Source: Acanthamoeba castellanii str. Neff | Taxonomy: Eukaryota > Discosea > Longamoebia > Acanthamoebidae | NCBI RefSeq assembly: GCF_000313135.1 | Contig: NW_004457343.1 | Location: forward strand, 531,321 to 595,320 | Direction of reading: 5' to 3' | DNA: 64,000 nt | Shown here: positions 2,476 through 8,732 of the stretch, in pieces | Numbering within the stretch: position 1 is the stretch's first letter | Layout: every line of letters begins with the position of its first letter | Position numbers and translations under genes: made by a program | Notes under the pieces: model-generated | Told to the model about the DNA's origin: nothing | Databases searched by the model: none | What the model saw: only the letters and a program-made list of their open reading frames with translations

Positions 2476-5378
2476 TCATTCAGATGAAAGGATGATGTCA
2501 AAGAAGCTGTCAATTTCGCTGGACTCGCAACCATCAACGCCCTCGCTCAGCTGCAGCGGCTCGATCTTCATGTATGGCGACTCCTGCTTGTGTGCGTCCG
2601 CAATGGGCCAGGTTAGCAAACATCATCAGCTGAGCCACCCAATGCGAAACGACCCCCAATGGAAGGGGTGTGTAAACCATATCCTCTCCTTCAACGAAAG
2701 GCGAGAGGGAGAGGCCGCCGAACTGTCGCCGGAGCAGCTCGTAGAGACTTCTGCCCACCTCTTCATTTGCCTGAGACACCCAAGAAGAACCCCACACGAC
2801 ACCACATTGCTTGGTGAGAACCCGCGCGCAGTACACGAGATCCTGCGCGGTACGTACCATGGCTTGGGCGTACAGGGTTTCCACAGTGGCCTGGGCCGAG
2901 TGGGCTGCCCCACCGGTGGCAGCGGGCCGAAGGACCTGCCCGTGATCCAGCTCCTCCTCAGCCTCTTCTTCGCTGGGCAGGTGCGCGCCGTACGGAGACC
3001 CAACAGCGGGAGAAGCCGGTTCGATGTGCTTTCGCTTGCCTCCCGCTGAAACGAATGCAGATGCATGAGGAGCCGGACAAGGGCCTGGGCGCGGGCGCGG
3101 TGTGAAGGGAGGGTGAGATGGGGTACCTAGCTCGTTGACAGCTGTTCCGAAGGTGGTGTTGTTCTCGTAGCCGTGGGGCAGCTTGAGGCTGTGGTCCTTC
3201 ATGCACTTGAGCTGTTTGATGGTCTCCTCCAGCAGCTTGACGTCACACGTCCGATAGCCCGCATCGGTGTGCCGGTCAATGGAGTGCAGCGCCAGAGTGC
3301 CCTCTTGTTCGGGCTGCTTCAGGAGCTCTGACGACAGGACAATGACCACAAACAATCAATTTAGACGGACGCCTTTGTGGTTCCTCATAGCGGAGAGTCG
3401 GCACCGATAATTTGATTGAGCGCCGCCCGCAGAGCCTTGTCGGAGTGAGGGTCATAGATGCGCACGATGGTCGCCTGCAAGCGCCCCTTGTACAAATTCA
3501 AGGCGAGCGCGTCCGGCTGTCGTTGTGACAGCGCCACGCAATGGTGAGCGAAACGGAACGGAGGGCAAAGAAGCAAGCGCGGTACCTGGGACGAGAAGCG
3601 GAGCAAGAACGTGGGGCGGCCGGTGAGCTCGGAGGCTTCCTTGAGGACCTTCTCGACCCGAGAAGGGGGGATGAAGTGGAGCAACGACGACTCCATCAGC
3701 GCTTGAACCTGCGCACCCGATCGACATAATTCAGAAACGGAGCTACATCAGCCGACAGCGGGAGAGGTATACGTCAGCGGTGTTGTAGAGCGCGTAGAAG
3801 GAGTTGGTCCACGCGATGAGCCGCTGGAAGATGTCGGGGGTGATCTCCTCGCTGGGAGTCAGCCGGTGGATGCTGAGTACGATGTCCTCCGAAGGCAGGG
3901 GCTGATCCGTTTTGGCGCCGGCCTTCTGCTTGCCGGTGAGGTCGCGGTAGCACCGCTTGGCATAGAAGCGGGAGATCCACTTCCATGCCACCTCCCACGT
4001 CTGCCACCCGACCACCACGAGGTGGAGGCTCGGTTAGGGTGCGGAACAGTGCCCATCTGGAGTGGTCTAATAATGTAGTACCGGAATCTGCTGGAGCTCG
4101 CGCATGGCCACGCGATAGAACATGTCCGGTCGCTGCGTGCTCTTGCTATGCACGACGTAGTGGAAGTCTTGCTGGGCGACCACCCGCTGCCTTGAAGGGC
4201 GTACATACAGAAACGCAGAGGGTGAATGGGCTGACCTCGAGGGCGAAAACTGCGAAAGGCCTTAGGGGACGTACTCCAGGTCGATCAAGCGCAAACGCAT
4301 CACCTGCACGCCAGCTTTGTTGTAGAGGGTCGAGGTATCGAGCAGCACCTGCGTGCGCATTCAGCGGATGAGCACCGACGAACGTCACACGAACACATGA
4401 CGTCGCACACGCACCATGAACTGGTTGCCTTTTAGCGGGACAAAGGCCACGCTAGGGTCCTCGATCTCATCCGCGCCGTCTCGTGCCAGCGTGACAGCAA
4501 CCAGCCGCGCGTTCCTCGGGTTGGTGACCGTCACATGCAGGTATTCGGGCGTGTTCGGCTTCTTCTTGTCGCGCAGGAAGAGCACGTCCTGGGTCGGCGC
4601 CACATCGATCCTGTCAGCATTGAACAAAGCCAACCGTGAGTGAGCCTCTCGCGCACAATCACATTTGCACTTCTCTCGAAAACGCGAGTTTTGAGAGCTA
4701 CGCACCGAGAGTGAGGGTCTAGGTCTGGGTGAATCCTGGACAGCGGAGCGCTGGGGACGGAGGACTCTTTGGGCGTCGCAAGAGTCGTACGCCGAGCCGA
4801 GCTGGCGCCACTGACCTTGCGCGCCGGTTTTCGGCCGGCCTTGCTGCTGGCCCGCGCGCCCGCAGGCGGAGAGTCGGCCGAGTACTGTGGCGGTGGTGAG
4901 GTGACCTGCTGAGGTGTGGGCGGCAGCACCACGGCCGGGCTCGAGGGATACGACGCGGGCGCGGGCTTGTGGTGGGCTGCCATGTACTCATTCATGGCCT
5001 GGTGCACGTGGGAAGCACTGCGCACGAGCATGGCACGAGATGAGGGTGAGAAGAAGAAAGAGAGCCAACTGCCCCCCTCGAGGGAGATGCGGACCTTGGA
5101 AAGGGGGTGGGCGAGCGGAGGAGGGTCTGCAGCAAATCCGGGAACAACGTGAAGACGCCGGCCTGGTTAGGGTTGGTTCGTATGAACTCGGCCAGGCAAT
5201 CCCCTCGTTGCCCGAGGATGTGCTGGTGCTGCTTCAGTATGTCCTCGCTCTGCCTGTTCGCGTGCTGCCCTCCCCCCCACCCAAATTCAGTTACTTTTCG
5301 CAATTGATCTCAAGATTCAAGATTCCTCCTGGTGGATCGATTGAATTGATTAATCGTGCTCACCTCATCTGCATTCAT
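2476..5378 (-). CDS. STAT-like transcription factor with SH2 domain
   Basis: Thirteen exons join with consistent phase: 5378-5364, 5264-5095, 5017-4706, 4610-4415, 4348-4275, 4190-4082, 4000-3773, 3708-3586, 3516-3405, 3327-3127, 3045-2858, 2770-2678 and 2583-2476, giving 642 residues. In order there is a short helical N-terminus, a Pro/Ser/Ala linker, a DNA-binding-like region (LFLRDKKKPNTPEYLHVTV, NPRNARLVAVTL), a Trp-rich linker (TWEVAWKWISRFYAKR) and an SH2 core GRPTFLLRFSSQ with the phosphotyrosine-binding Arg. Near the C-terminus ESPYMKIEPLQ resembles the STAT tyrosine site (Y-hydrophobic-K). The tail is acidic and hydrophobic (EIDSFFDIILSSE), like a transactivation segment. STATs dimerise through reciprocal SH2-pTyr contacts and enter the nucleus. 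Dictyostelium has such factors, so a homologue here is plausible. The coiled-coil region looks shorter than in animal STATs. Confidence 0.8.
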
Positions 5379-5512: not shown

Positions 5513-8052
5513 TCACGAGGAGGACGACGCCTCCTCTTTGCTTGCGTGGGGCTCCTTCTTGTCCTCGGCGAACTGCTTGCGCTTGAGGAAGTAGTCCGAC
5601 ACGTGGGCGTGGGCCGGGCCTTCGGCGTCCTCTCCGTAGGTGACCTGCAAGCACGTGTGCAATCAGTACCCAGCACACGCACACGCACACGCACCACCAC
5701 ACGCACCACCGCACACCAAAGAAAGGGCAAAGGGTACGGTGATATCGGAATGGATAGAGGGATCAAAGTCCATGATCTTCTCCATCGTGATCAGCCTTCG
5801 TCGCAGGCGCATGGAGAGCACCTGCTCGGAGTTGGCCAGCAGCTTGAGGCAGGGGTGGAGCGGAACGTCGCTGTCCTTGTACCTGCGACGCCGCGGTCAG
5901 AGTGGTAGACCCCTTGCCAGCTGAAGTGGAAGAGAGGGGGGAGTCACGCACTGGTCGGTGGTGGGCAGCCAGTAGACGAGTCGTCCGCCCATAACCAGCG
6001 TCTGTGCGGCGAAAACGAGCAGGTCTCGCAACACGTCCGGCACATCATAGGGCACGGACTGAGGGATGTGGGGCAGGTCGCTGCATGGACGGACACGACA
6101 GACACAACACAGTAAGAACCTACACCCGGGAGGAATGGCTTGCAGCTGCCATGGTCGCAGGGGGCAGGCGTGGTACAGATCGACGCGGGCCTCCTTGACC
6201 TTCCGCTTGACCTTCTTGCCGATCTTACGCGCGCCAGCTCGCACTCCGTATGGCGCTGGAGGTTTGACAGGCGATAAAAATGAGCCAATGGCTGTGCCAC
6301 CGCAGCGGGAAATGGTACACTCGGCGTGCAACTGGGGGTTGAACGTACGATCGCCGACAATGGCATCATACCACTGCGCGTTGCGCCTCCAGCAAGGACG
6401 AGAGCCATCGCACGCAACCAAGTCCACAAGCCTGTCGTCCATCTTGTACTGCGCAAAGTTTGTGAAAATGTTTGTGGATCCATCTGCCAGGAACAGCCAC
6501 CAGTAAGAAATGTAAGCACTCACCATCACACCGACGAGAGAATGGGAAATATGAGCGGAGTGAGTTGAAACCTGTGACTTGCTGGTTGAGCTTGGTGTCT
6601 CCCCGCAGCACGCGCGGATCGATGTCGCCACCGATGGTCATCGCTCCAAAATGAGCGCAGCCCACCAGAATGCTTCCTGTCAGATGCACACGAGACACGC
6701 GCACGCGCGTTAGTCCTAGCTTCTCCTGCGAAAGGAGAGGCCGGGTTGTGGGCCGGTAGGACGCGCACCGGTGCCCACGAACGGGTCAAACACGAAGCTA
6801 CCCGACCGCGCAAGCGCCTGGTTCGCCATCAGGAGGGACCATTCGCTGCTCATCGAGGTGGTGCCGAGGTAGCCTCTCTTCTTGAGCGAGTACTTGTCAA
6901 TGGCAACTCGGCCTTCTCCCTCGGCAATCTTAACATGACCGGCCTTGCGTGAGTAAGGCCAGACGCTACCTTGTGGCGCGATAGAGATGCCACACAAAGC
7001 GGTACCTGACGAGCGAAGTATATCTTGCGAGGCGGCATGTCCTTAGGTGCGTTGTTGCCAATGTCTTCAACGATCCAAAATCGGTTGTCCGGTTCCTCCA
7101 GACTAATCTTGCCTGATGTAAGACATGTGGGGTCCATAGCGATGGATTGTTGTTGTGAGTTGAAATGCGGGTGGGAGCATTGAGTGCGAGCTAGAAGGTG
7201 AGAAGAGGAACCATGCAGAGGAAGGGAGGCAAAGCGCTTCATGATCTCGATACGCTCGGCGTTATCGTACTTGCGGCCGAACCCATCCACCACAAACTTA
7301 AAGGACTTGTCCGCCGCACCGTAGATTTCCTGATGATGCGAACACGGCCAGTTGGTGTAAGACCATACAATCGACATGCAGTTTGTTGATGATGATGATG
7401 ATGAAGGGGAAGGTGAAGAAGATGGCGAGTGTCGATTACCATCTTTTCCCTGGGATACTTGTCCAGGGAAGCGAGCAGCTCTTCATAGGTCTTACCTTCG
7501 CCCCATTTCTCGAAGAACCCTCTGCACGTGCACGAAACAACGAACGTGAGTCGGAGCCGTGGCTGACCACGAGACGAGTGGCAAGAGGGGAAGGTTACTT
7601 GATCAACACCGACCGAGACGCGATGTCGGCGGCCGCCTTCTCGGACGGAAGCGTGACAGTCAAGAACGGACACTTGAGAGATGGACATGTGGTGAGCAAA
7701 CTGCCAGCAGGCAGAGAGAAAGCGGAAAGTGAGCGGTCTAGTGCCGGGCTGTACCTCCGGATCATGTTCCTCTTTGTTGTAGTGGAGGGGATAGTTGAAG
7801 AGACGAGCAAGAGACTCCAACTCTGATGCCCATCAACAATTGATATCTTGAATAAGATTCTGAAGAACAATTAATCGCAAGAGAATGCCGTACCTGGGAG
7901 CCTGAATTCAACTCGTGTGTGGAAAAAATAGCACAAGAACTGCACCCCCTCCGCCGGAGTCTCGTCCACCTAACCGACAATTAGAAGACAAAATGAATAA
8001 ACCTGCCAATGCGCCTGATAGATCTTGGATTGATAAGGACCGCTACCTGCAT
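5513..8052 (-). CDS. TRM11: tRNA (guanine-10-N2)-methyltransferase catalytic subunit
   Basis: Fourteen exons encode about 471 residues, close to human TRMT11 (about 463). Exon 1 is only ATGCAG (8052-8047). The N-terminal THUMP-like part shows FHTRVEFRLPELESLARL and GFFEKWGEGKTYEELL. The Rossmann methyltransferase part has FVFDPFVGTG (SAM-binding motif I), GGDID, WYDAIVGDPPYG (DPPYG catalytic motif joined across the 6349/6255 splice) and QTLVMGGRLVYWLP. Trm11 partners with Trm112 to form m2G10 in cytosolic tRNAs. The last exon (5644-5513) encodes a divergent tail (DYFLKRKQ, then a Lys/Glu/Ser-rich end). The gene is head-to-head with the PDRG1-like gene, 140 bp away. Boundaries of exons 1 and 4 are the least certain. 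Confidence 0.92.
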
Positions 8053-8192: not shown

Positions 8193-8732
8193 ATGAAGCG
8201 CGGCTTCTTGGTGTCGGAGAAGGCTCCATCTCAAGCCAGGCCAGCCACAGCTGGGCGCCCAAAAAAGACACCGGAAGAGCTTGAGCGAGAACGAGATGCT
8301 GTGATTATGTCGCGATTATCGATTGATCAAGCGGTCGAGTATGAGGCTCTTCGCGAAGACATCGCCACCGAGAAGCAAACGGTATGGGCTCATCCTGGCT
8401 CCTCACATGCACACCCTAACCGTCCGTGTTCTGCCGGCAGCTGAGGAACTACGAGATCCGAGAAGAGCGAAACAAGCAGGCACTCGGGTACCTGGCCAAG
8501 CCAGACGCAGAGTCGAAGGTCTGGTACTGTGCTGGTGACTTCTTCATCCACCTGCCCAAGCAGAAGGCCGAGGGACTTGTGCAGCGAGGTACGTGCCATC
8601 CTCGCGAAGATGCAGCGACCCGCCATAACCGTCTTTGCAACACCAGACCGAGACAACGCAGCGTGCGAGGCCGAGGCAACACACGAACGGATCAAGAGCA
8701 AGACCGTGGAGCTACAGCAGCTAGCCAAGTAG
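8193..8732 (+). CDS. PDRG1-like prefoldin-family protein (intact copy)
   Basis: Three exons (8193-8381, 8441-8588, 8647-8732) encode 140 residues. The N-terminus is basic (MKRGFLVSEKAP) and is followed by a helical segment (DQAVEYEALREDIATEKQ). The core KVWYCAGDFFIHLPKQKAEG and the charged helix after it match the beta-hairpin and second helix of PDRG1 (pattern V-x-x-C-x-G-x-x-F-I-x-x-P). PDRG1 is a prefoldin-like subunit of the R2TP/prefoldin-like assembly machinery for RNA polymerases and PIKK kinases. A second copy that lacks its 5' end lies after the sequence gap (9340-9770). Confidence 0.72.

Follow-up and report, generated by a model that had tools for sequence, protein, structure and literature searches.

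The stretch analysed here (the window) comprises 64,000 nucleotides of contig NW_004457343.1 of Acanthamoeba castellanii str. Neff (assembly GCF_000313135.1, positions 531,321 to 595,320). Near its start lies a gene of 13 exons, encoding 642 residues, whose product is STAT-like, i.e., a probable descendant of the STAT family and not a proven member of it (coordinates in Table 1). The gene is real. When the minus strand was aligned with a homologous protein, P0001, with splicing at GT-AG sites, ten introns and one open frame emerged; the alignment backs residues 70-642, P0001 beginning at residue 70, and revealed exon 12 (2770-2678). Residues 1-69, encoded by exons 1 and 2 and the start of exon 3, come from hand splicing alone and are provisional. 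Taken together with the two hand-spliced first exons, the alignment reproduced the 642-residue product and the end points proposed in a first-pass annotation made from the letters of the DNA. The order of motifs described there was also borne out, i.e., a beta-rich stretch, a tryptophan-containing helical stretch, GRPTFLLRFSSQ and SPYMKIEP.

The product can be divided into an immunoglobulin-like (Ig-like) part at the position of the STAT DNA-binding domain, a helical linker, an SH2-like domain containing FLLRFS, and a long C-terminal tail. No coil was recognised: the Dict-STAT coil family PF09267 was absent at this locus, while matching five other loci, and Pfam found no match in the 82 N-terminal residues, which derive from unconfirmed exons. 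The tail contains a basic GGKRKH, two helices predicted in both of the fold models described below, SPYMKIEP and an acidic/hydrophobic end (EIDSFFDIILSSE), the last of which is a possible activation segment.

Conservation was assessed with a 611-residue model (the gene product lacking exon 12) as query against 5.8 billion proteins, 7,996 candidates sharing most five-residue words being scored. Within that candidate scope P0001 (573 residues, on a 2653-nucleotide contig) and P0002 (405 residues, on a 1357-nucleotide contig) were the sole matches at E 10. The P0001 contig does not decide between RNA and genomic origin, whereas P0002 looks RNA-derived, because its contig is too short for the introns of the gene. 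Identity between the gene product and P0002 was 238/242 over residues 258-500, 67/74 over 501-575, 31/32 over 576-607 and 32/35 over 608-642. The open frame is thus conserved in two further protein clusters, i.e., beyond chance, and both core and tail look constrained, on the thin basis of two close relatives. Within the 38.4 Mb genome, all 11 exon-level matches to P0001 fell at the gene's own locus (contig C189).

Beyond FLLRFS, the resemblance to STATs is weak but measurable, and above chance. With hhalign, 4 of 2000 shuffles equalled or beat the gene product against a STAT profile. Two introns match those of an ordinary Acanthamoeba STAT gene, L045, in place and phase; the second of these rests mainly on L045, its counterpart in the STAT gene L044 adjoining a suspicious four-residue exon. 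A fold model supplied with STAT rows in its alignment (STAT-fed) gave 28 best listed PDB rows that were all STATs, helped by those rows, and its SH2 region reached a confidence of 81-90 over residues 291-360 of P0001. The Ig-like part also appeared without STAT input, since a two-sequence AlphaFold model lacking STATs returned Ig-like PDB rows where the STAT-fed model returned STAT rows; the complete STAT core, with Ig-like part and EF-hand-like linker, appeared with STAT input, at low mean confidence. The SH2 beta-B arginine of STATs, in a motif of the FLIRFSE type, is present as Arg405.

Other results weigh against STAT descent. Pfam assigned no family to the 611-residue model or to four pieces (its filters remove most matches above ~0.1), NCBIfam and a phmmer search of PDB sequences returned no match to the gene product, and with hidden Markov models made from five Acanthamoeba or 42 amoebozoan STATs, many shuffles of the product outscored it. 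The internal hhalign probability was just 3-5%. Against the STAT profile, 15 of 53 open-reading-frame decoys outscored the product, 14 of them from STAT or other SH2 loci and the fifteenth (score 28.06) an open reading frame of the L048 locus; ordinary non-STAT SH2 proteins among the 14, with scores of 41-63, thus look closer to the profile than the product does. With all 22 distinct STAT intron positions taken into account, the intron match was not significant (P 0.09). The STAT-fed model is partly circular, with a mean confidence of 56.5, and Foldseek alone found no match for it at E 0.001. The two-sequence model was poor (mean confidence 35.7), and VIA-align gave no STAT among the 50 rows listed for it, which we do not count as absence. 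For each of the two models, the top Foldseek entries were single Ig-like domains.

The 50 SH2 matches obtained across the genome also did not include the locus; PF02864 (STAT_bind) matched nothing anywhere, controls included, and is hence uninformative. The first-pass annotation had named the lack of any STAT DNA-binding or SH2 match as grounds for giving up its STAT assignment, and literally that is what Pfam returned; we read the Pfam miss as showing how divergent the protein is in sequence. Its proposal of a STAT core stands in part: the hhalign score, the shared introns and the fold model with STAT rows give it moderate support, whereas STAT and SH2 family profiles did not recognise the protein. 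The wording "STAT-like" is used because family profiles were tried without recognising the protein, and because a complete phosphotyrosine pocket (see below) was looked for and not found.

If the gene did not come from STATs, it would derive from another SH2 protein, e.g., one combining SH2 with a Cbl-like linker, or from an unrelated protein that carries FLLRFS. We regard such an origin as very unlikely. STAT rows score much higher across the three parts, though STAT rows were in the alignment, and the shared introns and the Gly-Tyr spacing described below also speak against it. So would the predicted Ig-like part ahead of the linker, which the Cbl TKB region (four-helix bundle, EF-hand, SH2) lacks. 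Descent from STATs is, in our judgement, probable.

The Tyr-Met-Lys of SPYMKIEP resembles the Tyr-Ile/Leu-Lys of animal STATs, and the first-pass annotation had taken this tyrosine, Tyr611, as the STAT tyrosine, with a switch like that of animal STATs. The end of the tail is indeed conserved, as noted above for P0002, which retains Tyr-Met-Lys. Spacing points elsewhere. Of 42 amoebozoan STATs, 36 carry a Gly-Tyr that follows the SH2 beta-B arginine by 85-98 residues, and the other six have no Gly-Tyr beyond 60 residues after it; downstream of that Gly-Tyr, 3-12 residues remain in 34 of the 36, and 21 and 33 in the other two. Tyr611 lies far outside this range and is not preceded by glycine, whereas Gly-Tyr500, in LPHGYENN, falls within it; the only other Gly-Tyr after Arg405 is that of Tyr471, at 66 residues. 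The last 35 residues matched no PDB sequence, animal STATs included, although with so short a query this is a weak test. By spacing and the Gly-Tyr signature, Tyr500 is thus the leading candidate for the role of STAT switch. The earlier choice was probably wrong, and a switch at Tyr611 seems to us highly unlikely. A reading of MKIEP as a SUMO site was dropped, since P0002 has KIQP in place of KIEP.

Alignments gave a mixed picture of Tyr500. In BLASTP, residues 401-501 matched 623-723 of the C229 STAT (first splice) at E 0.10, with both Gly-Tyr sites inside the match, and MAFFT --add placed Gly430-Tyr431 of P0001 on conserved columns, in a comparison whose query ended at residue 445, so that Tyr611 lay outside it. 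A larger multiple alignment (A3) counts against the assignment: it pairs Tyr431 of P0001 with the tyrosine of YYSK, and pairs the switch Gly-Tyr with residues unrelated to it.

Also unfavourable to a working STAT switch are three substitutions in the gene product: the beta-D histidine, invariant in the 42 STATs, is alanine, the alpha-A lysine/arginine aligns with proline, and the near-invariant asparagine of ITNESQW is lysine. The pocket is therefore incomplete, lacking both the alpha-A lysine/arginine and the beta-D histidine. These positions matter for contact with phosphotyrosine and DNA. A published description of the pocket partly backs their importance (PMC4206453). The altered pocket makes a serious rival of a STAT-derived factor that has lost its phosphotyrosine switch and acts, regulated by its tail, as a constitutive partner of ordinary STATs or as an inhibitory one that dampens them. 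The apparent lack of a coil and the long conserved tail would suit such a factor; the SH2 arginine, the serine two residues on and Gly-Tyr500 are, however, all retained in the gene product, P0001 and P0002. We consider loss of the switch rather unlikely.

Ordinary STATs of A. castellanii have been described. One of 689 residues was cloned, and at least two more were reported (Kicinska et al., 2014; PMC4206453); Clarke et al. (2013; PMC4053784) give counts for this species of 22 tyrosine kinases, 12 phosphatases and 48 SH2 proteins, and mention the STAT family. Two primers of PMC4206453 match locus L044 exactly, and one that was sought in the window had no match there even when up to three mismatches were allowed. 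Both coil and SH2 matches occur at five ordinary STAT loci (C183, C124, C130, C229 and C44; L044-L048), which is more than the three A. castellanii proteins listed in PMC4206453. The C124 query retrieved 89 STAT proteins, most of which carry PF18214, PF17901 and PF00017, and many PF09267 as well. The present gene is not mentioned in the titles and abstract openings of the literature searched, supplements being outside the reach of that search. A term search of PMC13191114 gave two STAT matches, both of them an abbreviated journal title among its references.

The gene had initially been put forward as evidence for a tyrosine-kinase-to-nucleus route in this amoeba. Such a route is not news, since tyrosine kinases, SH2 proteins and STATs have all been published for A. 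castellanii (PMC4053784, PMC4206453). Because STATs and 22 kinases are published and five ordinary loci exist, we regard the gene as an aberrant STAT-like gene and not as the first sign of that route; it is probably a further divergent member beside those five.

Comparison with individual STATs illustrates the divergence. The published STAT XM_004336169 (PMC4206453; L044, C183) has its Ig-like part, linker and SH2 arranged as in the gene product, and L044 shares with our gene an intron, in the same phase, where the DNA-binding part begins. XM_004336169 has a poly-Gln N terminus, a Dict-STAT coil and its switch tyrosine at 677 of 689, whereas the gene product has no coil that we could find and 142 residues after Tyr500. 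The C124 STAT (L045, P0007) shares the core order and two introns (place and phase), but has four Pfam domains, and in the multiple alignment its identity to P0001 is only ~19%. Identity to Dictyostelium STATa (PDB 1UUS, 1UUR), which has the coil in its structure, was 13%, as measured with the STAT-fed model. Animal STATs (STAT1, 2, 3, 5 and 6 in the PDB) likewise differ from the gene product, which is without a recognisable coil.

The interpretation that we favour, with moderate confidence, is that the gene is an old, strongly diverged Acanthamoeba STAT paralogue, in which the Ig-like part, linker and SH2 domain were kept, the coil was seemingly lost and a long tail is present. Computation shows the gene structure, its conservation and a weak but above-chance relation to STATs; phosphorylation, dimerisation, nuclear entry, DNA binding and activation are inferred. 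An amoeba tyrosine kinase would phosphorylate Tyr500, which would then be bound by Arg405 in the SH2 domain of a partner molecule. The resulting dimer, in which the partner may instead be an ordinary STAT, would enter the nucleus and bind DNA with altered specificity, and the acidic/hydrophobic end of the tail may serve as the activation segment.

What stays of interest is a probable STAT derivative that is conserved, bears a tail, apparently has no coil and escapes standard libraries. The new point would be that the STAT family includes members invisible to domain libraries; if so, a STAT core can persist without its coil, and lists of protist STATs made with Pfam are incomplete. More speculatively, a single-celled amoeba may here have a coil-less STAT that acquired, independently of animals, a transactivation-like tail downstream of the switch tyrosine, possibly together with a second regulatory tyrosine in SPYMK. 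We hold this to be a tentative idea; it would give an animal-like layout to a lineage in most of whose known STATs the tyrosine is followed by just a few residues.

Table 1. Features of the STAT-like gene and its neighbours (window positions)
Feature	Position	Strand	Basis or remark
STAT-like gene	5378-2476	minus	13 exons, 642 residues
Exons 1-7	5378-5364, 5264-5095, 5017-4706, 4610-4415, 4348-4275, 4190-4082, 4000-3773	minus	
Exons 8-13	3708-3586, 3516-3405, 3327-3127, 3045-2858, 2770-2678, 2583-2476	minus	
Beta-rich Ig-like part, residues ~161-272	4139..4722	minus	strands predicted in both models
Helical linker, residues ~273-374	3690..4138	minus	predicted helices; hhalign register with STAT linker
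SH2-like domain with FLLRFS, residues ~370-498	3167..3708	minus	alignment with 42 STATs
Arg405 codon (SH2 beta-B Arg, FLLRFS)	3600-3598	minus	
Tyr500 codon, LPHGYENN	3167..3169	minus	95 residues after Arg405
C-terminal tail, 142 residues after Tyr500	2476..3166	minus	sequence; conserved in P0002
Tyr611 codon, SPYMKIEP	2572..2574	minus	206 residues after Arg405
Next gene upstream	5513-7800	minus	contains DPFVGTG
Small spliced gene	8193-8730	plus	starts MKRGFLVSEKAPSQ
Small, apparently spliced frame	1937-2250	plus	rich in Tyr/Ser/Asn/Gly (SNGSYYYSNPNGSTYYNNGSG)

The next gene upstream may, to judge from DPFVGTG, encode a TRM11-like tRNA methyltransferase; Pfam found no match in three single-exon pieces of it. 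The small spliced gene beyond it may encode a PDRG1/prefoldin-like protein; Pfam gave no match to its first piece. The small frame on the plus strand lies past the 3' end of the STAT-like gene. A further SH2 match (E 3e-8) occurs ~21 kb ahead of the window, at C189:510362-510496.
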